DNA of 25,816 nucleotides, taken from the IMG/VR virus record IMGVR_UViG_3300040801_000328, positions 1 through 25,816 of that record; one strand, given 5' to 3'. Shown piece by piece: positions 1,174 through 17,709 of this stretch; position 1 is the stretch's first letter; each line of letters opens with the position of its first letter. The stretch is from a virus. The position numbers were made by a program, and so were the translations under genes. The notes beneath the pieces are model-generated. The model was not told the origin of the DNA and ran no database searches. It saw only the letters and a program-made list of their open reading frames with translations.

Positions 1174-1190
1174 ATAAACGGTTAAACCTT

Positions 1191-1221
1191 TTGTATTTAA
1201 ACTTATAATTGTATATATTTG
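1191..1221 (+). promoter_or_regulatory. Bacteroidota-type promoter (TTG-N20-TATATTTG)
   Basis: TTG at 1191-1193, exactly 20 bases, then TATATTTG at 1214-1221, matching the known Bacteroidota -33/-7 pattern (TTTG and TAnnTTTG). It is 23 bases before the ATG at 1245. Just upstream, GGTTAAACC (1180-1188) and a direct repeat AACGGTT (1161-1167 and 1177-1183) could be an operator or a weak hairpin ending the exported-protein gene. Identical spacing is seen at 20818-20848 and 25705-25735. Confidence 0.65.
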
Positions 1222-1244: not shown

Positions 1245-1553
1245 ATGTCAACACAAGAACAACCAACAGAACTTTCTAAGGAAGAACTACAAAAACGTAG
1301 AGAAGAAATCACAGCTTTTTACAAAGACAACATCAAACATTTAAAGGTTCAGAAAGAATATGAAGAACTATTAAGAGATGTAGAAAAAGCACGTGCTGAA
1401 AGATTACAAGCTCAAATGTTTTTAGCTCAGGCTTATGCAGCAGGAGAAGAGGCTGAATCAGAAGAAAACACTTCAGAAGCAAAAGCTGAGTTTGAAGCAG
1501 CAATGAGTGCTGTTAATGAGCCTAAAACAAGAACTCTTAAAAAACAAAAGTAA
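1245..1553 (+). CDS. Coiled-coil protein upstream of the endolysin
   Basis: A 102-residue, highly charged protein dominated by Glu, Lys, Ala and Gln. Residues 10-70 show the heptad-like pattern of a continuous coiled coil, followed by an Ala/Glu-rich stretch and a basic tail ending in KKQK. No membrane segment is present, so it is not a classical holin. It is the first gene after the promoter at 1191-1221, and its TAA overlaps the amidase ATG by one base (1553), so the two are almost certainly co-translated. It might be a structural rod or an endolysin partner; function unknown. Confidence 0.75.
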   Translation: MSTQEQPTELSKEELQKRREEITAFYKDNIKHLKVQKEYEELLRDVEKARAERLQAQMFLAQAYAAGEEAESEENTSEAKAEFEAAMSAVNEPKTRTLKKQK

Positions 1554-2467
1554 TGGAAATTTTAAAAGAGGGATCAAAAGGCCCGGACGTAAGAAAACTA
1601 CAACAACTGCTTAAAATAAATAAGGATGGAATATTTGGTCCCGCTACTAAAAAGGCAGTTATTAGATTTCAGTTAGGACGTAATTTAAGTGCAGATGGTA
1701 TTGTAGGTAATGATACCTGGACACTTCTTTTAACAAATGGTCCTGAGTTTGAAGCTATTGATGAGGACACTGATATTGCAGAGCAATATTTTACTACATC
1801 ATTTAATCAAGTTATACACAGACATTTTTTACCTAAAGGTGAATATATAGAAGGACCTGTTACTAATGATTATGTTTTTATACATCATACAGCAGGATGG
1901 AACAATCCTTACAAAACTATAGATAGTTGGGGTAGAGATAGCCGTGGAAGAGTTGCCACTGAATTTGTACTAGGAGGTCAGAACATTAGAAATAATGATG
2001 ATGAGTATGACGGTGTAATGGTGCAAGCATTTCCAGAAGGTGGTCAAGGTTGGCATCTTGGTAAAACAGGATCTGGTTTTATGAACCGTCACTCTGTAGG
2101 TATTGAGATTAATAACTTTGGTTATATCAAAGATGGAAAGACATATGCAGGAACTACTGCACATGAAGATCAAATATGTAAATTAAAAGAACCTTTTAAA
2201 GGTTATATTGAATGGCACAATTATTCACCTGCACAAATAGAGGCGTTGGATCTTTGGTTAAGATATATAGCTGAGAGAGATAATATTGATATACGTGTTG
2301 GATTAGTACAATGGATTAAAAAATATGGACCAACCAAAGCATTTGAATTTCAAGAGGATGCGTACTATGGTAAAGTCAAAGGTCTTTTAACACATACTAA
2401 TGTTAGAAGAGACAAATTTGATTGTTACCCTCATCCTGACTTGATTGATATGCTATTAAGTTTATAA
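1553..2467 (+). CDS. Endolysin: peptidoglycan-binding domain + N-acetylmuramoyl-L-alanine amidase
   Basis: A 304-residue modular cell-wall hydrolase that would cut the amide bond between N-acetylmuramic acid and the stem peptide. Residues 5-60 form a PG_binding_1 domain (GSKGPDVRKLQQLL, then DGIFGPATKKAVIRFQ and DGIVGNDTWTLLL). A linker of about 45 residues follows, then an amidase_2 (AmpD / T7-lysozyme type) fold from about residue 106. Candidate zinc ligands are H111/H112 in IHHTAGW, H281 in LLTHTNVRRDK and D290 (K288-x-D290 as in AmpD); GWHLGK and SVGIEINNFG fit the core. There is no signal peptide, so a holin-like or other release route would be needed. A structural, tail-associated hydrolase is the alternative, but the neighbourhood favours lysis. 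Confidence 0.9.
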   Translation: MEILKEGSKGPDVRKLQQLLKINKDGIFGPATKKAVIRFQLGRNLSADGIVGNDTWTLLLTNGPEFEAIDEDTDIAEQYFTTSFNQVIHRHFLPKGEYIEGPVTNDYVFIHHTAGWNNPYKTIDSWGRDSRGRVATEFVLGGQNIRNNDDEYDGVMVQAFPEGGQGWHLGKTGSGFMNRHSVGIEINNFGYIKDGKTYAGTTAHEDQICKLKEPFKGYIEWHNYSPAQIEALDLWLRYIAERDNIDIRVGLVQWIKKYGPTKAFEFQEDAYYGKVKGLLTHTNVRRDKFDCYPHPDLIDMLLSL

Positions 2468-2468
2468 T

Positions 2469-2831
2469 ATGGCACTAGTAAATAAAGTAGATCAAAAAGC
2501 TAAAGTTGATATTGATATAACAATCAAGTATCAAATTATGACATATTGTTTCTTTAACAATATAAAGATTAGTAATGCTGATTTGGAATGTTTATCTGAA
2601 TTAGCAAAACAAAAAAATGTAGAGCTTACTTTATTTTGTAATAGCGTGACTGAACTGGGGATTTTTAAAAGTCCTCAGTCAGCACGTAATGCTGTTACAA
2701 AAGCAAGTAAAAAGAATCTTGTAATAAAAGATGGAAAGAATAAAAAGAAAATCTATTTAAATAAGGATATGAATGTTCAAACAGTAGGTCCTGTTTTATT
2801 AGATTATAAAATACTAGGAATTGAAAGCTAA
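2469..2831 (+). CDS. Conserved phage protein with winged-helix-like region
   Basis: A 120-residue protein. Residues 66-97 look like a winged helix: a helix (SPQSARNAVTKASKKNLV) followed by a basic turn and strand (IKDGKNKKKIYL), similar to the recognition helix plus wing of small transcription factors. Residues 18-60 are helical with two cysteines. I associate similar proteins with Bacteroidetes phages beside an HU/IHF-like gene, as here. It starts two bases after the endolysin stop, and its end overlaps the TTG start of the HU-like gene by 11 bases. A DNA-binding regulator or packaging-site binder is a reasonable inference, not a demonstrated role. Confidence 0.7.
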   Translation: MALVNKVDQKAKVDIDITIKYQIMTYCFFNNIKISNADLECLSELAKQKNVELTLFCNSVTELGIFKSPQSARNAVTKASKKNLVIKDGKNKKKIYLNKDMNVQTVGPVLLDYKILGIES

Positions 2832-3207
2832 AAGTTACAAAGATTTTAAAAAAGATATAGCTTCTAAAGCGGGGGTTCATCCAGATTTAGTTGATGAATT
2901 TATTACATTTTATTATGCTAAAGTTAGGAAACATCTTTCTGACTTAACATATCCTAGTATTACAGTTACCGGATTGGGAACTTTTCAAATAAGAAAACCT
3001 GCTTTAAATAAAGCTATAAAAAAGAATAAAAGCATTCTTGGTAATTTATCTAAGAATACATACAACGGTTATGAGAAGCACATAGGTGTTACAGAAAAGT
3101 TAGAAAAGTTTGAAGCTATGACTTTTATGATAAAAGATATTGAAGAGGATAAAGCAATTTTTAAAGAAAAGAAAAATGAATATAAAAAAGCTACTAAACG
3201 CATTTAA
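2821..3207 (+). CDS. HU/IHF-like DNA-bending protein
   Basis: A 128-residue protein of the bacterial histone-like (HU/IHF) family. Residues 6-60 match the core: helix YKDFKKDIASKAGVHPDLVDEF, a second helix, then the strand pattern ITVTGLGTFQIRKPAL, equivalent to the I..PGFGTF.VR signature, with P60 near where the DNA-intercalating arm proline falls. About 68 extra residues at the C-terminus are Lys/Glu-rich and helical, longer than typical 90-residue HU. The start is TTG at 2821; no ATG or GTG precedes the HU fold in frame. It lies between a winged-helix-like protein and a zinc-binding protein in a coupled gene run. A role in DNA bending for packaging, condensation or transcription is likely. 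Confidence 0.8.
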   Translation: MKAKSYKDFKKDIASKAGVHPDLVDEFITFYYAKVRKHLSDLTYPSITVTGLGTFQIRKPALNKAIKKNKSILGNLSKNTYNGYEKHIGVTEKLEKFEAMTFMIKDIEEDKAIFKEKKNEYKKATKRI

Positions 3208-3478
3208 GAATCTTGATCAGATAAAAGAAGGTGTATTGAATACTATTTTTACAAAAAAGGAAGTAGAAATAATTGCAGATGAAAGACTTAAAATTTGTTT
3301 AAAGTGTGAACACTTTGATAATCAAGGAAGTAACTGTTTAGCTCCTGGAACTCAACCTTGTTGTTCTGAATGCGGTTGCAGTTTAGCATTTAAAACAAGA
3401 TCACTATCATCAAGTTGTCCTAAAGAAAAGTGGGGTGCTTGGTTAACAGAAGAACAAGAAGAAAAATTAAATTTATAA
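3176..3478 (+). CDS. Cysteine-rich probable zinc-binding protein
   Basis: About 100 residues from the ATG at 3176; an earlier in-frame ATG at 3140 would overlap the HU-like gene by 68 instead of 32 bases and adds only a basic stretch. The protein contains eight cysteines: C41-x2-C44, C54, C62-C63, C66-x-C68 and C81 within ICLKCEHF, GSNCLAPGTQPCCSECGCSL and SSSCPKEKW. The arrangement strongly suggests one or two bound zinc ions. The pattern ending CPxxKW is one I associate with short phage proteins of unknown role. It is cytoplasmic and coupled to its neighbours. A DNA- or protein-binding zinc ribbon is the most likely description. Confidence 0.75.
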   Translation: MNIKKLLNAFKNLDQIKEGVLNTIFTKKEVEIIADERLKICLKCEHFDNQGSNCLAPGTQPCCSECGCSLAFKTRSLSSSCPKEKWGAWLTEEQEEKLNL

Positions 3479-3480
3479 TT

Positions 3481-3711
3481 ATGACAGTAACAGAAATAGT
3501 AAATGATCTTTTAAAATATGAAATGATCACATCAGAAGCAGCTTTAGTTTTATTAACAGCTGAGGCAGAAGCTGCTGCATTCCGTAATCAAGGAAATCAA
3601 GGTTTACAGACCTTTCCTTATAATCCACCATTTAAGGTTGGAGATAGACCAGCTGATCAACCTTTTTGGTATACAACATCAACAGATACCTCATCAAAAA
3701 TTGAAGAATAA
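3481..3711 (+). CDS. Small protein, unknown function
   Basis: A 76-residue protein from the ATG at 3481, two bases after the stop of the zinc-binding protein gene. A longer in-frame reading from 3430 would lie inside the upstream gene and adds residues that are only its shadow. The N-terminal half is helical and Ala/Glu-rich (EIVNDLLKYEMITSEAAL); the C-terminal half is Pro/Tyr/Trp-containing and looks extended. No known motif. Its TAA overlaps the ATG of the nuclease gene by one base (3711), indicating coupled translation. Confidence 0.7.
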   Translation: MTVTEIVNDLLKYEMITSEAALVLLTAEAEAAAFRNQGNQGLQTFPYNPPFKVGDRPADQPFWYTTSTDTSSKIEE

Positions 3712-4523
3712 TGGCTGTAATATTTAAAGAAGAAGGTCATGTTTATGAAAGCAATGATCAAGAAAAAATAGATTGGACAAGCGTTACATCTTTTATAGGT
3801 AAGTTTAAACCTAAATTTGATGCAAAAGGTCAGGCTAAAAAATCAGCTAAGAATAAAAGATCTAAGTGGTATGGTATGACTGAAAAAGAAATACTAGCTG
3901 CATGGGAATCAGAAACGCAAAGAGCAATAGATTTAGGTAACTGGTATCATAATCAGAGAGAAGCAGATATGCTAGACTTTAAGACTATTGAAAGACATGG
4001 TGTTGAAGTACCTATAATTAAACCTTTAGTTGATGATGAGGGTATTAAAACAGCTCCTGAGCAGAAGTTAAAAGATGGTGTATACCCTGAACATTTTGTT
4101 TATTTAAAATCAGCACAATTGTGTGGGCAAGCTGATTTAGTAGAGGTTGTAAATGGATATATTAATATTACAGATTACAAAACAAATAAAGAAATAAAAG
4201 AGAAAGGTTTTACTAATTGGGAAGGTATAACATCAAAGATGTATAACCCTGTAAGTCATCTGGATGATTGTAATTTGAATCATTATAACTTACAACTCAG
4301 TATTTATGCGTATATTATTAAAAAGCACAACCCTAAATTAAAAATAGGTGAGCTTGTTGTTCAACACGTTAAATTCAAACAAGTTGGTACAGATAAAAAT
4401 GGATACCCAATTAATGAACACGTTAATGGAGAACCTGTAATTGAAGAGATTAAAATGTATAATTTACCATATCTTAAAGATGAAGTTAGAACTTTGATGA
4501 TGTGGCATAAAGATAATATGTAA
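3711..4523 (+). CDS. PD-(D/E)XK superfamily nuclease (RecB/Cas4-like)
   Basis: A 270-residue predicted Mg-dependent nuclease. The superfamily signature is visible in order: G76-x3-H80-x3-E84 (GNWYHNQRE), D142 in CGQADLVEVV, the D155-Y-K157 core in INITDYKTNK, and Q195-x3-Y199 (QLSIYAY), the QxxxY motif of RecB-, AddB- and Cas4-type exonucleases. The N-terminal 60 residues contain a basic stretch (KKSAKNKRSK) that may contact DNA. It sits in the run of small genes leading to the terminase, overlapping both neighbours by one base. Likely jobs are DNA end processing during recombination or packaging, or host DNA degradation. Family assignment is strong; the biological role is inferred. Confidence 0.85.
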   Translation: MAVIFKEEGHVYESNDQEKIDWTSVTSFIGKFKPKFDAKGQAKKSAKNKRSKWYGMTEKEILAAWESETQRAIDLGNWYHNQREADMLDFKTIERHGVEVPIIKPLVDDEGIKTAPEQKLKDGVYPEHFVYLKSAQLCGQADLVEVVNGYINITDYKTNKEIKEKGFTNWEGITSKMYNPVSHLDDCNLNHYNLQLSIYAYIIKKHNPKLKIGELVVQHVKFKQVGTDKNGYPINEHVNGEPVIEEIKMYNLPYLKDEVRTLMMWHKDNM

Positions 4524-4789
4524 TGATAACACCTAGAATTTTTGAAAGTTTGCAAGTAGTTACTGTAAGTGAAGCAACTGGTGATGGTAATTATACAACA
4601 ATTACTAAAAAAGTTTATACAGATACTCAAATTGATTTAAGTAAAGTTATTGCATTTAATCATTATATAAATCCTGAAACAGGTAATATAGACTCTGCTT
4701 ACACAGAGGTTTATGTAGAGGGTTTAATTGGAGTTAAAATATTAAAAATAAATTTTATTTTATTTAAAGAATTAATAGATGCATTATGA
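4523..4789 (+). CDS. Small protein, unknown function
   Basis: An 88-residue protein with a mainly beta-strand-like composition (many Thr, Val, Ile) and no recognised motif. One charged-to-hydrophobic stretch near the C-terminus (VKILKINFILFKELIDAL) is too mixed to be a clear membrane helix. The ATG at 4523 overlaps the nuclease TAA by one base, and its TGA at 4787-4789 overlaps the next ATG at 4786 in an ATGA arrangement. It is therefore part of the coupled pre-terminase operon. Function unknown. Confidence 0.7.
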   Translation: MITPRIFESLQVVTVSEATGDGNYTTITKKVYTDTQIDLSKVIAFNHYINPETGNIDSAYTEVYVEGLIGVKILKINFILFKELIDAL

Positions 4790-5304
4790 TAGTAAGATTA
4801 TTTGATATACAAAATGGTAAAGTTATACCAACAGAACATTGTTATACTTTAAAGTTTTTAAAAGAATTAATGGATGAATATCCTGATACATACATGAGTG
4901 TTTATCAATATTTATTTTACATGTCTTGTCCCAATCCAGATTTAAATCCTTTCTTTAATTTACCAGAGCATGAGAAAGAAGATATTATAATTGAAGAAAT
5001 AGGTCTTGAAGAATCAACAGAAGATGCTAAAATTAGGTATTCTTTAGAAATGGCTAGAAAGCTTTATGAAACACCTACATATAGAGCTTATGTTGGGATT
5101 AAATCAATGCTTGATAGATTGGCTAGATATATGGAAACTACAGCAATAGAACATGGTAGAGATGGTAACATTAATTCTATGGTAAATGCTGCCGCTAAAT
5201 TTGAACAAATAAGAAATTCTTATAAGGGTGCATTTAGTGATATGAAGGAAGAACAAGAAAGTTCAGTTAGAGGTGGCGCAGGATTAGCTTATGATCAACT
5301 TTAA
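4786..5304 (+). CDS. Conserved helical protein upstream of TerL; candidate small terminase
   Basis: A 172-residue protein. Residues 1-75 are mixed and acidic; residues 85-165 are helical with the stretch MLDRLARYMETTAIEHGRDGNINSM-type core (about 106-131) and an AAAKFEQIRNSYKGAFSDM helix near 135-155. I recall this C-terminal pattern as conserved in Bacteroidetes phages, always of unknown function. Its position two genes before TerL, its helical composition and its length are compatible with a small terminase subunit that recognises viral DNA, but no helix-turn-helix is evident. It overlaps its upstream neighbour by four bases. Confidence 0.7.
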   Translation: MIVRLFDIQNGKVIPTEHCYTLKFLKELMDEYPDTYMSVYQYLFYMSCPNPDLNPFFNLPEHEKEDIIIEEIGLEESTEDAKIRYSLEMARKLYETPTYRAYVGIKSMLDRLARYMETTAIEHGRDGNINSMVNAAAKFEQIRNSYKGAFSDMKEEQESSVRGGAGLAYDQL

Positions 5305-5306
5305 TA

Positions 5307-5480
5307 ATGCAAGAAAAAAAAGACAAATGGGTGTTTTGTTATTGGGATGAAGCACATTTTGAAGAAGATAAAACAATAAATAATAAATCAACAAAAAATG
5401 ATAAAAACAAAAGTAATACCGGTAGGGAAAAAGGTTTTAGTAAAACCAAAAGAAGCACAGAGAATGGTGCCAGGAACTAA
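5307..5480 (+). CDS. Possible 57-residue ORF overlapping the GroES-like gene
   Basis: An ATG two bases after the 172-residue gene's stop opens a frame of 57 codons ending at 5480. The first 30 residues (MQEKKDKWVFCYWDEAHFEE and following) look like a genuine acidic, aromatic-rich protein and fill the otherwise empty 93-base gap. The remaining 27 residues overlap the co-chaperonin gene in another frame and are Lys/Asn/Ser-rich, as a shadow would be. It could be a true overlapping gene or a chance frame; comparison with relatives would decide. Confidence 0.4.
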   Translation: MQEKKDKWVFCYWDEAHFEEDKTINNKSTKNDKNKSNTGREKGFSKTKRSTENGARN

Positions 5481-5682
5481 CATTATTATACCAGACTCAG
5501 CAATACAAAAAGAATATAAAGCTTATGTCATTGGTGTAGGTACAGAAGTTACTGAAATCAATGAAGGTGATTTAATACAATATGCTGAATATTGTGTTCC
5601 AACTGAAATGGAGCATGAGGGTACTATGCATTTACTTATTAATGTTGGGGATATTCATGCAATTTTAAAAGAAGAAGAGTAA
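5398..5682 (+). CDS. GroES-like co-chaperonin (10 kDa chaperonin family)
   Basis: A 94-residue protein matching the chaperonin-10 fold in length and layout: VIPVGKKVLVKPKEAQR at the N-terminus (compare the R/KVLVKP strand of GroES), a mobile-loop-like segment PGTNIIIPDSA (residues 25-35) with a hydrophobic tripeptide where GroES binds GroEL, then YKAYVIGVGTEV, GDLIQYAEYCV and a final strand ILKEEE. It would cap the host GroEL to fold viral proteins, as T4 gp31 and other phage co-chaperonins do for their capsid protein. No GroEL is in the window. Its TAA overlaps the TerL ATG at 5682, so it is expressed with packaging genes. Confidence 0.8.
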   Translation: MIKTKVIPVGKKVLVKPKEAQRMVPGTNIIIPDSAIQKEYKAYVIGVGTEVTEINEGDLIQYAEYCVPTEMEHEGTMHLLINVGDIHAILKEEE

Positions 5683-7871
5683 TGTATATTTCCATTCCAA
5701 CATATGAATCTGGTAAATGGACTGAAACTGATTTTGAGACAAGAGAAAGTTTTAAAGAGTTTGTATTATCAATTTTTAAAGAACCTGGTCTTTATGAGTT
5801 TAACAATACATCTTTAATTTTTAACCAAGAGGCTATTAATTTTAATAAAGATGGATTTTATTGTTCAGCTCCTTTTAGGTCTACAGATTTTACAAGTTAT
5901 TGGAATGATCAAAAAAATAAATGCCGTGTGGGGGTTATCTATAAAGATGGTTCCCATACTTGGTATTTAACAAGAGATTACTATATGTGGTTAAACTTTC
6001 TTCCTATTTATGACAAGGAGGAAAAGAAGTATGGGTTTGCTAAGGTCAGAGATGCTCAGTATCATATGGCTTTATATGAACTACTTGCTGAACTTAGTTA
6101 TAAGCATTCTGCCATTTTAAAGAAACGTCAGATTGCTTCTTCTTACTTTCACATGGGTAAGATTATTAACACATATTGGTTTGAAGAGGGTAGCACTTGT
6201 AAGATAGGTGCTTCTCTAAAGGATTACATTAATGATAAAGGTTCATGGAAGTTTCTTGATGAATACAAAACATTTTTGAATGAGCATACTGCTTGGTATA
6301 GACCTAGTAATCCTGAAAAGGTTTTATTATGGCAACAGCAGATTGAAGTAAAAGTAGGTAATAGAAAAACATCCAGAGGTCTTAAGTCTAAGATACAAGG
6401 TGCATCTTTTGAAAAGAATGCTACAACAGGTGTAGGTGGACCTACAACAATCTTTTTTCATGAAGAGGCTGGTATTGCACCTAAAATGGATAAAACATAT
6501 GAGTACCTTAGACCTGCAATGTCTTCTGGTATGGTAACAACAGGTATGTTTATAGCTGCAGGTTCTGTAGGGGATCTTGATCAGTGTGAGCCTTTAAAAC
6601 AAATGATATTGAATCCTACAGCAAATGATATATATGCTGTAGAAACTGATTTAATGGACAAAGATGGCACTATTGGATTGGCTGGTTTATTTATTCCAGA
6701 GCAATGGTCTATGCCCCCTTATATTGATGATTACGGTAACTCTAAGATAGAAGAAGCACTTGATGCAATAAAAACAGAAAGAGCCCAATGGAAAGCTGAT
6801 TTAAGTCCTGAGCAATATCAATTACGTATTTCTCAGAAACCAACTAACATTGCTGAAGCTTTTGCTTATAGAAAAGAATCAGTATTTCCTCAAGGTATTT
6901 TATCACAACAACAAAAAAGAATTGAAGAGAAAGAATATGCATATGAGCATATAGAGCTTGAAAGAGTTAGTGATGGTATTCATGCAAAAAGATCTAATAA
7001 GTTACCTATATCAGAATTTCCATTAAGCAAAAAAGCACAAGATAAAACTGGATGTTTGGTTGTATGGGAAAGACCTGTTTCAAGTCCTGAGTTTGGTGCT
7101 TATTATGCATCTATTGACCCCGTATCAGAAGGTAAGACAACTACTTCAGATTCATTATGTAGTGTTATTGTATATAAAAACTCTGTTGAAATAACAAGAG
7201 AAGGTCCCCAAGGTCTTGAACGTTTTATAGAACCTGGTAAAATTGTAGCATCTTGGTGTGGTAGATATGATGATATTAATAAAACACATCAGCAATTAGA
7301 ATTGATTGTTGAATGGTATAATGCTTGGACTATTGTTGAGAATAACATATCATTATTTATACAACATATGATATCTAAAAAGAAACAAAAGTATCTTGTA
7401 CCAAAACAACAGATTATGTTTTTAAAAGATCTTGGTTCAAACAAATCTGTTTATCAAGAATATGGTTGGAAAAATACAGGGACTTTATTTAAAAATCACT
7501 TGATATCATATGCTATTGAATTTCTTAGAGAAGAAATAGATCAAGAACTAGATAATGATGGTAATATAATAAAAACAACTTTAGGTATAGAAAGAATACC
7601 AGATCCAATGTTATTAAAAGAAATGCTTGCATATTACCCTGGACTCAACGTGGATAGGCTTGTAACTTTTGCTGCATTAGTTGCTTTTGTTAGAATTCAA
7701 GAATCAAATAGAGGTTATTTAAGAAGAACTGAATCAGAATTGGGTGATTCCTTGGATAATTCAAAAAAATTCCATAAATTAAAGTATAGTCCGTTCAAGA
7801 ATATTGGAAGGACTAAAACTGCTAACGGTGGTCCAAAAGTAAAAAGATCAGCATATAAAAATTTTAGATAA
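5682..7871 (+). CDS. terL: Terminase large subunit (ATPase-nuclease)
   Basis: A 729-residue DNA-packaging motor. In the ATPase half, KKRQIASSY (147-155) stands where the Walker A loop is expected but lacks the GK[ST] ending, and TTIFFHEEAG (255-264) is a Walker B strand with His260 where Asp is usual, followed by E261-E262; GSVGD (295-299) may be the coupling motif. The RNase H-like nuclease half has D479 in YYASIDPVSEG, E553 in WTIVENN and an Asp near 658 in GLNVDRL, spaced as in other terminases. The C-terminal 40 residues are basic and may contact the portal. It directly follows the co-chaperonin and precedes the portal. Confidence 0.9.
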   Translation: MYISIPTYESGKWTETDFETRESFKEFVLSIFKEPGLYEFNNTSLIFNQEAINFNKDGFYCSAPFRSTDFTSYWNDQKNKCRVGVIYKDGSHTWYLTRDYYMWLNFLPIYDKEEKKYGFAKVRDAQYHMALYELLAELSYKHSAILKKRQIASSYFHMGKIINTYWFEEGSTCKIGASLKDYINDKGSWKFLDEYKTFLNEHTAWYRPSNPEKVLLWQQQIEVKVGNRKTSRGLKSKIQGASFEKNATTGVGGPTTIFFHEEAGIAPKMDKTYEYLRPAMSSGMVTTGMFIAAGSVGDLDQCEPLKQMILNPTANDIYAVETDLMDKDGTIGLAGLFIPEQWSMPPYIDDYGNSKIEEALDAIKTERAQWKADLSPEQYQLRISQKPTNIAEAFAYRKESVFPQGILSQQQKRIEEKEYAYEHIELERVSDGIHAKRSNKLPISEFPLSKKAQDKTGCLVVWERPVSSPEFGAYYASIDPVSEGKTTTSDSLCSVIVYKNSVEITREGPQGLERFIEPGKIVASWCGRYDDINKTHQQLELIVEWYNAWTIVENNISLFIQHMISKKKQKYLVPKQQIMFLKDLGSNKSVYQEYGWKNTGTLFKNHLISYAIEFLREEIDQELDNDGNIIKTTLGIERIPDPMLLKEMLAYYPGLNVDRLVTFAALVAFVRIQESNRGYLRRTESELGDSLDNSKKFHKLKYSPFKNIGRTKTANGGPKVKRSAYKNFR

Positions 7872-7873
7872 GT

Positions 7874-10627
7874 ATGAAAGTATTTAATGCAATGCAATTG
7901 AAGAACGGTGCTAAAGCTGATAGCGGGTATCCGTCAACTTCTAGCCTTACGCAACCAATACAGTTTTTACCTTCAAAAAAGAAAAATGAAGATTGGGCTG
8001 CTTGGAATTTAGATTGGCTTGAATTGCAAGGTATGCAGTTCTTAAAACAAAATTCTAGAAAGTTATTAAAGAATTATAAGCTTGCTAAAGGGATTATTGA
8101 TAAAACTGACTACATTGTAGAAGAGGATAATGATTATAAAGATTTAGTTGATGTATTAACTAAAGAAGATGAATCAGCACTAGAACTTAAGTTTTATCCA
8201 ATCATACCAAATGTTGTAAATGTACTATCAGGAGAATTTTCTAAAAGATATTCTAAAGTTCAGTTTAGAGCTGTAGATGATTTATCTTATAATGAAATGC
8301 TTGAACAAAAAAGAGCATTGGTTGAGGAAAATTTATTAGCAGATGCACAAGAAAAACTTTTATTCAGAATGATTGAAATGGGTGCCAACCCGGAAGATCC
8401 TGAATTTCAACAAAAACTTTCTCCAGAAAATCTTAAAACATTACCTGAAATAGAAGACTTCTTTTCTAAGGATTATAGAAGTATGGTTGAGGAATGGGCA
8501 TCTCATCAATTAAATGTTGATGAAGAAAGATTTAAAATGCAAGAATTAGAGGAACGTGCTTTCCGTGATATGCTTATTACGGACAGAGAGTTCTGGCATT
8601 TTAGAATGCTTGAGGATGATTATGAATTAGAATTATGGAACCCTGTTCTTACATTCTATCAAAAATCTCCAGATGCAAGATATATATCACAATCTAATTA
8701 TGCAGGTAAAATGGATCTTATGACCATTGCTGATGTGATAGATAAGTATGGTTATTTGATGAATCAAAAACAACTGGAATCTTTGCAGGAAATATATCCG
8801 GCAAAATCAGGTGCATATCAAGTGTCAGGTTATCAAAATGATGGGGCTTACTATGATCCTACTAAATCACATGAGTGGAATACCGGTTCTCCAAGTTTAG
8901 GTTATAGACAATTTGTTTCCAATTGGAATACTTCTCCTGAATATGGTGGTGATGTTATCAGCTCTATATTAAATGAGGGTGATGATATTACACACTGGGG
9001 TGAGGGATCCCTAATGAGAGTAACAACTGTATACTGGAAAACTCAACGTAAAGTAGGTCATCTTACTAAGATAACAGAAACAGGTGAAGTCATTCAAGAG
9101 ATTATTGATGAAACTTTTAAAGTAACAGAAAAACCTATATATGATGATTCATTGTTTAAGAATAAAAACAAAGAAACATTATTGCAAGGTGAACATATAG
9201 ATTGGATTTGGATTAATGAAACATGGGGTGGTGTTAAGATAGGACCAAACCTTCCAGCTTTTTGGAAATCTAATGCAAGTGATAATATTAATCCTATTTA
9301 TTTAGGGATTAATAAAAAGAAACCAGGTAGAGTACCTTTTCAATTTAAAGGTGACAATTCTTTATATGGTTGTAAATTACCTGTTGAAGGTAGAGTGTTT
9401 TCAGATAGAAACACAAGATCAACATCTTTAGTTGATTTAATGAAAGCTTATCAAGTAGGATATAACATGGTAAATAATCAAATAGCAGATATTCTGGTAG
9501 ATGAGTTAGGTACTATAATCATGTTTGATCAAAATGCTTTACCGCGTCATTCAATGGGTGAAGATTGGGGTAAAGGTAATTATGCTAAAGCATACACTGC
9601 TATGAAAGATTTTAGCATGTTACCATTAGATACATCTATTACTAATACTGAGAATGCTACAAACTTTAATCATTATCAAACTCTTAACATGGAGCAGACG
9701 GGTAGATTAATGTCACGTATTCAATTAGCTAATTATTTTAAACAACAAGCATTTGATGCAATTGGTGTTAATCCTCAAAGATTAGGTGCACCTATAGCAC
9801 AACAAACAGCAACAGGTGTTACGCAAGCATTAAATCAATCTTATGCTCAAACTGAAGTTTACTTTACACAGCATTCAGATCACCTTATGCCTAGAGTTCA
9901 CCAAATGAGAACTGATGTTGCACAGTATTATTATAGCAATAATCCAAGTGTAAGATTATCTTATATAAGTTCAGAAGCGGAGAAAGTTAACTTCACTATA
10001 AATGGAACGGATCTCTTGTTGAGAGACTTTAACGTATTTGCAACAACTAAGACAAATCATAGAGCTGTTCTAGATCAACTTAAACAATTAGCAATTACCA
10101 ATAATACTTCAGGTGCAAGTATTTATGATTTGGGTAATATAATCAAAGCTGATTCTATTGCTGAGGTAACTGATATACTAAAAGATGCTGAGGGTAAACA
10201 AGAAGCTCAAAGACAGCAAGAAATGCAACAACAACGTGAAATGCAAGAAAAGCAACTTAACGCAAGTGCTGAAGAACAAAAGCTTAAACGTGAATATGAT
10301 GCAATGGAAGCTGAAAAAGAACGCCAGAATGATTTAGAGGTTGCTCAAATTAGAGCTGCTGGCTATGGTTCTATGTCAGACATTAATGAAAATAAAATTA
10401 ATGATTTCCAAGATGAAATGGCAAACATTAGAGCTGATAGAAAGGATAGAGAAAAAATGGACTTTCAAAGACAACAAGCTACTTTAAAGAATTCTAATGA
10501 TCAAACAAAGCTTCAGATAGAAAGAGAAAAAATTGCAGCTCAAAAAGATATAGCTGATAAGCAGTTACAAATAGCAAGAGAGAATAAAAACAAATATGAT
10601 TTTAAAGATTCTAAGAAAGAAAAATAA
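7874..10627 (+). CDS. Portal protein with long C-terminal coiled coil
   Basis: A 917-residue protein immediately downstream of TerL (2-base gap), the usual portal position and near the large size seen in crAss-like phages. Residues 100-125 (LKFYPIIPNVVNVLSGEFSKR) resemble the conserved N-terminal portal segment; residues 470-560 contain the aromatic- and Asn-rich core. From about residue 750 to the end, runs of Glu, Gln, Lys and Ala form a very long coiled coil, likely the helical barrel or crown extending into the capsid. It would form the 12-mer ring through which DNA enters. No frameshift or truncation is visible. Followed by a 150-base gap with a hairpin and promoter-like motif. Confidence 0.85.
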   Translation: MKVFNAMQLKNGAKADSGYPSTSSLTQPIQFLPSKKKNEDWAAWNLDWLELQGMQFLKQNSRKLLKNYKLAKGIIDKTDYIVEEDNDYKDLVDVLTKEDESALELKFYPIIPNVVNVLSGEFSKRYSKVQFRAVDDLSYNEMLEQKRALVEENLLADAQEKLLFRMIEMGANPEDPEFQQKLSPENLKTLPEIEDFFSKDYRSMVEEWASHQLNVDEERFKMQELEERAFRDMLITDREFWHFRMLEDDYELELWNPVLTFYQKSPDARYISQSNYAGKMDLMTIADVIDKYGYLMNQKQLESLQEIYPAKSGAYQVSGYQNDGAYYDPTKSHEWNTGSPSLGYRQFVSNWNTSPEYGGDVISSILNEGDDITHWGEGSLMRVTTVYWKTQRKVGHLTKITETGEVIQEIIDETFKVTEKPIYDDSLFKNKNKETLLQGEHIDWIWINETWGGVKIGPNLPAFWKSNASDNINPIYLGINKKKPGRVPFQFKGDNSLYGCKLPVEGRVFSDRNTRSTSLVDLMKAYQVGYNMVNNQIADILVDELGTIIMFDQNALPRHSMGEDWGKGNYAKAYTAMKDFSMLPLDTSITNTENATNFNHYQTLNMEQTGRLMSRIQLANYFKQQAFDAIGVNPQRLGAPIAQQTATGVTQALNQSYAQTEVYFTQHSDHLMPRVHQMRTDVAQYYYSNNPSVRLSYISSEAEKVNFTINGTDLLLRDFNVFATTKTNHRAVLDQLKQLAITNNTSGASIYDLGNIIKADSIAEVTDILKDAEGKQEAQRQQEMQQQREMQEKQLNASAEEQKLKREYDAMEAEKERQNDLEVAQIRAAGYGSMSDINENKINDFQDEMANIRADRKDREKMDFQRQQATLKNSNDQTKLQIEREKIAAQKDIADKQLQIARENKNKYDFKDSKKEK

Positions 10628-10726: not shown

Positions 10727-10739
10727 TTTTGTATATTAT
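10727..10739 (+). promoter_or_regulatory. Recurrent promoter-like motif TTTTGTATATTAT
   Basis: TTGTATATTAT at 10729-10739 lies 38 bases before the ATG of the scaffold gene (10778), and the 11-mer is identical to the copies at 388, 16312 and 17664. The following bases ATATGTAAG resemble those after the 16312 copy. It could allow extra expression of scaffold and capsid. A TTTTG at 10702-10706 is 25 bases upstream, longer than the 20-base spacing of the standard pattern. Confidence 0.5.
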
Positions 10740-10777
10740 ATATGTAAGAAAGATTAATTACAAAAACCAACAATATT

Positions 10778-16291: not shown

Positions 16292-16322
16292 TTGGTAAAT
16301 TAAAAGAAATATTGTATATTAT
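16292..16322 (+). promoter_or_regulatory. Promoter before the 403-residue gene
   Basis: TTG at 16292-16294, exactly 20 bases, then TATATTAT at 16315-16322: the spacing of the Bacteroidota promoter with a weakened -7 box. It also contains the recurrent 11-mer TTGTATATTAT (16312-16322) shared with 388, 10729 and 17664, so it links the two motif classes. ATG at 16376 lies 53 bases downstream. Confidence 0.6.
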
Positions 16323-16375
16323 ATATGTGCAATGACGCACAATTATATATTTGTTAAATTTAAATTTTTGAAAAA

Positions 16376-17587
16376 ATGGCTTATTTTAATCATGCTTTTT
16401 ATAAAAGCTTTTTAGCAACAGATGCTTCTGCTGCTGATGGAACAAAAACTTCTGCGTTGGCTGCTGGTCAATTAGCATTAGTTGATGGAAAAGACTGGAC
16501 TGCTCATGCATCTGGTGCTTTCCCAAAACCAGGAATGGCATATCTTGTGCAAGGTTCTTTACACAATAGTGATACTATTGGTGGAAACAAATTTCACGGT
16601 GGTTATGCTGAATCTGTAAAATCTAAAGGAATTAATCCTAAATACTTAACAAGAGTATGGGAATCTAGCTGTATTGATGCTACTGCTGCAACTGTTGCTA
16701 TTTCTGTAGGACCTAAATGTGCTCCATGTGGATCATCACTTATGATGAGATTGGATGTTAAAGGTGCTCCTGCTCTACGTTTCTTGAATCACAATGCTTA
16801 TGCTATTGGTGACTCTGCTGGCGTTTGTTGTATTGATGGTCAAGAATTCATTGATCCTGCATTAGCTATTGCTGAAGCAGCTAAAATGTTATTGGCTGAT
16901 CCAATCATTGCACCTTTTGTTAAAGAAGCTGTAGGTGGTGGTGTTTCTGTTACTTCAAGTGCTTCAGGTTCTGTTGTAACAACTGTTTACACAATTGCTC
17001 AAGTACTAGATGGAACTTATACTCCTTCTACTGACCCAGTTGCTGATGCTGTATCTGCTACTGTAACTTTCAGAGGTGCTTATGTAGACACTAAATTTGG
17101 TGACTGTTCTTTTGACACACGTGATTACTTTGGAAAAGAACCTATTCAATTAGTAGGATCTATCATGGATGAAACTGGAAATCCTTGTAATGACTGTGGA
17201 GATGTAGTAACTACTCCGGGTACAATGCAACAAAAAACAGGTGAAAGCGTATTGAGAAATATTCTTTTAACTGAGGCTTATGGACAAGCTCCTTACCACC
17301 AAGGTAATGTAGATGCTGTACGTATGCGTGAGATTGAAGGTTCTGAAGAAGTAATTTCTGCTGTAGACCGTTCTGCTCTTTACAAAACATACTATGTACA
17401 ACACAGTGTGCCACGTTTGAATAACGCAACTAGCGTATTTGATAATGATCAATATGTATATGAGATCTTTGTTAAATGTGATGATGATGATACTCAAGGT
17501 GAAGTGGAAGCTTTATTGGATATTTTAGTAGCTGCTGCAAATGCATCAGGTAATCCAATTGAAAGAGAAGATTCTATTGATCAATAA
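16376..17587 (+). CDS. Abundant virion protein (possible tail tube/sheath or major structural protein)
   Basis: A 403-residue protein rich in Ala, Gly, Asp and Thr, with nine cysteines arranged as pairs or clusters (PKCAPCGSS, GVCCIDG, NPCNDCGD, and singles). Such arrangement is unusual and could bind zinc or form disulfides. Like the capsid gene, it uses CGT, TTC and AAC more than adjacent genes, suggesting high expression. It has its own promoter and terminator (17612-17645). I do not recognise the family; position after connector genes and before fibre genes suggests a major tail or decoration protein. Confidence 0.65.
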   Translation: MAYFNHAFYKSFLATDASAADGTKTSALAAGQLALVDGKDWTAHASGAFPKPGMAYLVQGSLHNSDTIGGNKFHGGYAESVKSKGINPKYLTRVWESSCIDATAATVAISVGPKCAPCGSSLMMRLDVKGAPALRFLNHNAYAIGDSAGVCCIDGQEFIDPALAIAEAAKMLLADPIIAPFVKEAVGGGVSVTSSASGSVVTTVYTIAQVLDGTYTPSTDPVADAVSATVTFRGAYVDTKFGDCSFDTRDYFGKEPIQLVGSIMDETGNPCNDCGDVVTTPGTMQQKTGESVLRNILLTEAYGQAPYHQGNVDAVRMREIEGSEEVISAVDRSALYKTYYVQHSVPRLNNATSVFDNDQYVYEIFVKCDDDDTQGEVEALLDILVAAANASGNPIEREDSIDQ

Positions 17588-17611: not shown

Positions 17612-17645
17612 AAAGGTGGGAGAGCAATCTCCTGCCTTTTTTATT
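17612..17645 (+). terminator. Intrinsic terminator with GCAA loop
   Basis: AAAGGTGGGAGA (17612-17623) pairs with TCTCCTGCCTTT (17628-17639) through a 12-base-pair stem including two G-T pairs, closing a GCAA (GNRA-type) tetraloop at 17624-17627, followed by T-rich TTTTATTTTA. It isolates the 403-residue gene as its own transcription unit. Confidence 0.8.
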
Positions 17646-17661
17646 TTATAATCTAATCTTT

Positions 17662-17674
17662 TTTTGTATATTAT
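17662..17674 (+). promoter_or_regulatory. Recurrent promoter-like motif TTTTGTATATTAT
   Basis: TTGTATATTAT at 17664-17674 stands 35 bases before the ATG at 17710, identical to the 11-mers at 388, 10729 and 16312. It follows the terminator at 17612-17645, as expected for a restart of transcription. No TTG lies 20 bases upstream. Confidence 0.5.
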
Positions 17675-17709
17675 TACTGTAGCATATTAGTTTACTTAAT
17701 TCATAAATC

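Follow-up and report, generated by a model that had tools for sequence, protein, structure and literature searches.

A gene run from endolysin to portal in marine crAss-like phages, probably a co-expressed lysis-and-packaging operon

Introduction

Why a virus should carry genes for DNA-binding, DNA-cutting and protein-folding functions packed one against the next, between its endolysin gene and the gene for its terminase large subunit (TerL), is the question raised by IMG/VR virus record IMGVR_UViG_3300040801_000328. The window analyzed here is the whole of this 25.8-kb fragment (25,816 nucleotides); the sequences of its relatives reach 108-118 kb. A first-pass annotation had proposed that the products of the run, namely a winged-helix protein, an HU/IHF-like protein, a cysteine-rich zinc protein, a PD-(D/E)XK nuclease, a candidate small terminase (TerS) and a GroES-type co-chaperonin, could form an unusual packaging-initiation or genome-condensing complex. 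In this report, we find that crAss-like phages are already known to carry such a gene block, of which the run is a marine version. It probably constitutes a co-expressed late operon for lysis and packaging in a marine crAss-like lineage, the products of which would have separate jobs and would be active at the same time but not joined in a single complex.

Gene order and phylogenetic placement

From position 1245 to position 10627, all genes lie on the + strand, in this order:

1245..1553, + strand: g4, a 102-aa charged protein, first gene of the putative unit
1553..2467, + strand: endolysin, with domain matches to PG_binding_1 and Amidase_2
2469..2831, + strand: predicted winged-helix (wH) DNA-binding protein, isoelectric point (pI) 9.3
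2821..3207, + strand: HU/IHF-fold protein (HU-like), TTG start, basic (pI 9.7), beta-arm without an intercalating proline
3176..3478, + strand: cysteine-rich zinc-type protein, eight invariant cysteines, weakly related to small phage proteins annotated DUF6171
3481..3711, + strand: g76, a small acidic open reading frame (ORF) in a variable slot
3711..4523, + strand: PD-(D/E)XK nuclease, RecB type (H80, D142, D155-x-K157, Q195xxxY199)
4523..4789, + strand: g88, a small ORF in a variable slot
4786..5304, + strand: 172-aa helical protein of the Crassvirales gene-86 family, candidate TerS, with a conserved RGG C-terminal tail
5398..5682, + strand: GroES-type co-chaperonin, conserved mobile-loop motif GTxIIIP
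5682..7871, + strand: TerL, crAss-like
7874..10627, + strand: portal protein, last gene of the putative unit

Most junctions are overlaps or gaps of 1-2 bases. The endolysin and winged-helix genes are 1 base apart, and they are followed by overlaps of 11 (wH/HU-like) and 32 bases (HU-like/zinc), a gap of 2 (zinc/g76), and overlaps of 1 (g76/nuclease), 1 (nuclease/g88) and 4 (g88/172-aa). The exception is a 93-base gap 5' of the GroES gene, which separates it from the 172-aa gene and which a 57-aa ORF overlaps; GroES and TerL again share 1 base. The six proteins named in the first-pass annotation are thus all present, co-directed, mostly overlapping and leading into TerL. The single tight run that it described is real, although it left out the 57-aa ORF and the small ORFs at 3481-3711 and 4523-4789.

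To gauge the constancy of this arrangement, loci were sampled through IMG/VR scans seeded with the TerL, nuclease, 172-aa, winged-helix and zinc proteins, and those that span endolysin to portal, 162 in all, were counted. These comprise 103 distinct TerL DNA sequences and 57 TerL clusters (95% amino acid identity). The order endolysin, wH, HU-like, zinc, nuclease, 172-aa, GroES, TerL, portal is exact in 161 of the 162; the remaining locus has no detectable GroES. Conservation of the order among these loci is far beyond chance, and the scattering among marine relatives that would have spoken against a linked module, a check set beforehand, is not seen. Because the loci were fetched through homology to parts of the run, this result speaks for stability of the order within the clade, not for its universality.

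The clade itself can be placed. The window's TerL is 25-28% identical to those of crAss-like phages and of Flavobacterium phages (genus Fipvunavirus), with profile E-values down to 3e-50. In a TerL tree, the window falls in a tight, monophyletic marine clade (support 100/100), apart from Suoliviridae, Steigviridae, Intestiviridae and Fipvunavirus; the exact place of this clade among the Crassvirales families is weakly supported. The crAss-like TerL homology bears out membership of the Crassvirales, as do the portal, the gene-86 protein and the presence of an HU-type gene within the late block. The lineage consists of marine crAss-like phages and branches deeply and separately within the Crassvirales group.

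Transcription signals

Two classes of promoter-like site and one terminator were recognized in the window:

1190..1221, + strand: promoter-like site of class A, TTTG ... TTTAAACT ... TATATTTG, with a Bacteroidetes-type -7 element TAnnTTTG, 5' of g4
10727..10746, + strand: promoter-like site of class B, TTTTGTATATTATNTATNTA, preceding the next (head) genes
386-405, 16310-16329 and 17662-17681: further class B TTTTGTATATTATNTATNTA sites, before several late genes
17612..17639, + strand: predicted intrinsic terminator, closing the late block

The class A site is the sole strong one of its kind in the window. Among relatives, TAnnTTTG occurs 5' of g4 in 52 of 54, compared with 0.12 per stretch of equal length; a stricter motif, which combines the -7 element with the upstream TTTAAACT box, is found in 45 of 54, against 5 of 3256 background windows. 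The class B site 3' of the portal gene recurs in 48 of 56 relatives (background, 3 of 2022 windows). A generic sigma-70 promoter scan gave no excess over shuffled sequences. At the far end of the late block, a terminator hairpin is present 3' of gene 16376-17587 in all eight relatives examined, with a stem that varies in sequence. In the window, this strong terminator (17612-17639) is directly followed by a class B site (17662-17681).

Given the conserved gene order and the single conserved promoter-like site 5' of g4, the run looks like one transcription unit. Judged from these sequence signals, the genes from g4 through portal probably form one unit, with a promoter class other than that of the head genes. 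The expression link, the absence of which the first-pass annotation had named as a refutation, thus finds predictive support within the marine clade, and distinct promoter classes are indicated for the lysis/packaging unit and the head genes. RNA-seq of Bacteroides phage crAss001 places "terminase, chaperone" among the late genes as assembly proteins (PMC8375218).

The candidate small terminase

The 172-aa protein is acidic. Its predicted structure is helical with a long C-terminal hairpin (predicted local distance difference test, pLDDT, 79.7). The profile of the marine family matches the product of the gene adjoining or just 5' of TerL in cr1_1 (E-value 4e-5), cr50_1, cr10_1, Fpv3 and Fpv20 and, weakly, crAss001 gp16. 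When widened with these relatives, it reaches Cellulophaga phage phi14:2 g095, cr3_1 gp69, cr8_1 gp58 and p-crAssphage gp84 (BK010471). The model also superimposes on the cr85_1 and cr50_1 proteins with a TM score of 0.80 (BFVD), and an RG or RGG motif lies close to the C-terminus in most family members. On profile and model evidence, the 172-aa protein belongs to the order-wide gene-86 family of the Crassvirales.

On the basis of gene position, Yutin et al. 2021 (PMC7886860) put gene 86 forward as TerS. The legend in that work gives the order TerL, portal, gene 77, major capsid protein (MCP) and gene 75, which corresponds to gp77, gp76, gp75, gp74 and gp73 in BK010471. The published numbering therefore appears to run two higher than that of BK010471, and by this offset gp84 would be gene 86. 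A chain of profiles thus ties the marine protein to the small terminase proposed for the phages that are most abundant in the human gut, and the TerS proposal becomes testable in a new lineage. If the gene-86 protein is a small terminase, it would mark concatemeric phage DNA and hand it to TerL.

The HU-like, winged-helix and zinc proteins

Single-sequence scans of Pfam and PHROGs missed the winged-helix, HU-like and 172-aa proteins; tblastn of the winged-helix and HU-like proteins against 50,697 phage records returned no matches; and profile searches of the PDB with the 172-aa, winged-helix and zinc families gave chance matches only. The HU-like protein was revealed only by family alignments. 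Its family profile matches the PDB HU structure 5eka (E-value 6e-4), 24 of 56 members match PF00216, and the GFGxF-type core is conserved (G51, G53, F55, R58). The beta-arm is another matter: no proline occurs at 33 of its 34 positions across the 56 members, and where the intercalating NPxTG would be expected there is a conserved KxxKSxLGNLxKxTYxGY. Since the arm proline is absent, we regard this as an HU-fold protein and not a canonical DNA-bending HU. A p-crAssphage candidate for its counterpart, gp78, gave a weak HU-profile match and was set aside as likely coiled-coil-like in composition.

A model for what an HU-type protein might do in packaging is lambda terminase with IHF, in which a DNA-architectural protein assists the enzyme at its site. 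In lambda, however, IHF is encoded by the host and has an intercalating arm, whereas the marine protein is encoded by the phage and has no arm proline. The remodeled arm could instead mark a dedicated partner of TerS or of the terminase site, a virus-encoded counterpart of IHF that would serve packaging initiation together with the overlapping winged-helix protein, but we think this unlikely. Under the operon reading, the HU-like protein would be a DNA-architecture helper or the partner of a regulator.

Could the HU-like protein, rather, be part of the virion, as a nucleoprotein by which the encapsidated genome is condensed? Its fold and basic pI of 9.7 are suited to such a function, and a role for IHF-like proteins in compacting crAss DNA during assembly was suggested by Yutin et al. 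(PMC7886860). The IHF meant there, however, is probably crAss001 gp42, which neighbors tail genes. Further, the phi14:2 genes 5' of TerL have no "experimental MS/MS" (tandem mass spectrometry) label, whereas most of its head and tail genes do, and in part of the published crAss001 virion text the proteins named are others than gp11-gp16 (PMC6235969, PMC10172136). The labels and the text thus speak against a virion nucleoprotein, although small proteins can readily escape such methods, and we consider the idea highly improbable. The genome-condensing complex of the first-pass annotation is not supported either, given these labels and this text and the missing intercalating proline.

The winged-helix protein has a confident AlphaFold model (pLDDT 90.7), the nearest fold to which is the DNA-binding domain of Zur/Fur (Zur, Z 11.9, root-mean-square deviation 2.6 over 89 residues); MecI-type regulators are also close. 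By its model, it is a protein of the winged helix-turn-helix (wHTH) fold, and it may regulate late transcription. In the zinc protein, the eight cysteines are invariant throughout the family; weak relatives occur in cyanophages, one of them annotated DUF6171, and the best profile counterpart is phi14:2 g100.

Alternatively, the winged-helix, HU-like and zinc proteins could be a regulatory trio, serving host takeover or the transcription of late genes, with the shared operon as its only tie to the packaging genes. The overlap of the winged-helix and HU-like genes is retained in nearly all relatives, and each occurs as a single copy, side by side, in all nine near-complete genomes. The likeness of the winged-helix model to Zur/Fur and MecI-type regulators points the same way, as does the annotation of crAss001 gp13 and gp11, in the corresponding position, as regulators. 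By sequence, however, the three genes belong to the same unit as the late genes, which would imply late timing for a regulator. We consider such a trio possible but on the doubtful side.

The HU-like gene begins with TTG at 2821. Its relatives begin with ATG (49), GTG (45) or TTG (28), as chosen automatically, and the neighboring genes almost only with ATG. These unusual starts possibly reflect weak initiation that is coupled to translation of the winged-helix gene.

The nuclease and the co-chaperonin

The nuclease matches PF12705 (above cut-off) and phrog_298. Its RecB-type residues, listed above, are invariant in 19 nuclease sequences, those of cr3_1 and Fpv3 included, and tblastn reaches p-crAssphage gp83 and other gut crAss phages. 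It is the PDDEXK nuclease already known from the structural block of crAss phages (PMC7886860), and it may act on DNA ends that are branched or broken, trimming or clearing them ahead of packaging or while it proceeds.

The co-chaperonin comprises a full-length Cpn10 domain (PF00166, E-value 5e-11; PDB cpn10, E-value 1e-7) and has an intact hydrophobic mobile loop. It would adapt the host GroEL so that portal or capsid proteins can fold, in the way that gp31 of T4 serves gp23. T4 gp31 is a phage analogue of GroES that works with host GroEL (PMC6318259); the likeness is one of function, with no homology implied, and the marine sequence is nearer to bacterial cpn10.

Comparison with known systems

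The Crassvirales structural and packaging block comprises gene 86, PDDEXK_a, IHF, TerL and portal (PMC7886860). The marine run has the same TerL, portal, gene-86 and PDDEXK families and an HU-type gene in the late block, but it is led by the endolysin gene, and the winged-helix, HU-like, zinc, nuclease, gene-86 and GroES genes are packed between endolysin and TerL. The closest described arrangement is that of crAss001: gp11 (zinc finger), gp13 (VpsT-like regulator), gp14 (HU), gp15 (10-kDa chaperonin), gp16, TerL gp19 and portal gp20. Profile searches return gp14 and gp15 as the best counterparts of the marine HU-like and GroES proteins. The crAss001 run nevertheless contains no nuclease or endolysin, has an intron endonuclease gene 5' of TerL, presents GroES and the gene-86 protein in the reverse order, and offers no sequence match to the winged-helix and zinc proteins. 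In phi14:2, genes g094-g100 bring together TerL, the gene-86 protein (g095), a GroES-like protein (g096, a weak second-best profile match) and the small cysteine protein g100; g097 and g098 resemble HU-like and winged-helix proteins by eye only, and a GroEL-like gene, g105, is present in addition. As the gene-86, PDDEXK and crAss001 counterparts have already been described, the marine run is not an unknown kind of system, and a packaging role is partly supported.

In other families, these genes are not always together. The nuclease of Fpv3 lies among tail genes, ~14 kb beyond TerL; in p-crAssphage, nuclease and lysozyme genes separate the gene-86 protein from TerL; and in Boorivirinae, a chaperonin-annotated gene, with no detected homology to the marine GroES, is many genes away. 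Thus, the gene set is old, and its arrangement is not fixed across the Crassvirales. The scattering that the first-pass annotation had named as a refutation is therefore seen in part in the wider order, while within the marine clade it is absent.

Several observations weigh against a co-expressed packaging operon as we have drawn it. Because the block is partly rearranged across the order, co-expression need not mean shared function. The TerS role of the 172-aa protein is that of a candidate, suggested by position and gene-86 membership, and solved TerS proteins offered no match to it in sequence or fold; Foldseek and VIA-align comparisons of its model with the PDB yielded generic long-helix matches. 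Finally, hhalign of the winged-helix protein against its positional counterparts (crAss001 gp13, phi14:2 g098 and the Boorivirinae regulators) gave nothing significant, and for this reason we claim no homology to them.

A further explanation is that the HU-like, winged-helix, zinc, nuclease, TerS and GroES proteins assemble into one initiation complex at the packaging site, where HU would bend DNA as IHF does for lambda terminase. Their fixed adjacency and probable co-expression would suit such a complex. Packaging by purified lambda terminase requires host IHF in a single-molecule assay (PMC11868608), and crAss001 is predicted to have defined ends with direct terminal repeats (PMC6235969), which makes a site-specific start conceivable. 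The HU arm, however, is unlike that of IHF, as no family member has a proline there at any position but one. Moreover, the nuclease and GroES can each be given an ordinary role of its own, and the nuclease and chaperonin sit elsewhere in other families. We therefore judge a single complex to be quite improbable. What stands of the packaging link first proposed is the part carried by TerL and by the gene-86 protein with its published TerS proposal; adjacency is the only positive evidence for one unusual initiation or condensing complex, and the HU arm argues against canonical bending. The co-expressed operon with separate jobs remains our preferred reading. In this marine crAss-like clade, which is widespread and uncultured, the order of the packaging run is fixed, and the run is likely a single transcription unit.

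Variable slots and neighboring arrangements

The gene-86 protein and the nuclease are neighbors in Intestiviridae as well: p-crAssphage BK010471 gp84 and gp83 (locus L372, 2792-4471) lie side by side, kilobases from TerL, with lysis genes between. Within the marine run, the variable slots differ in occupancy, g76 being present in 33 relatives and g88 in 14. In some relatives (loci L038, L039 and L263), additional sequence of up to 1.9 kb occupies the slots on either side of the TerS candidate (4523-4789 and 5305-5397).

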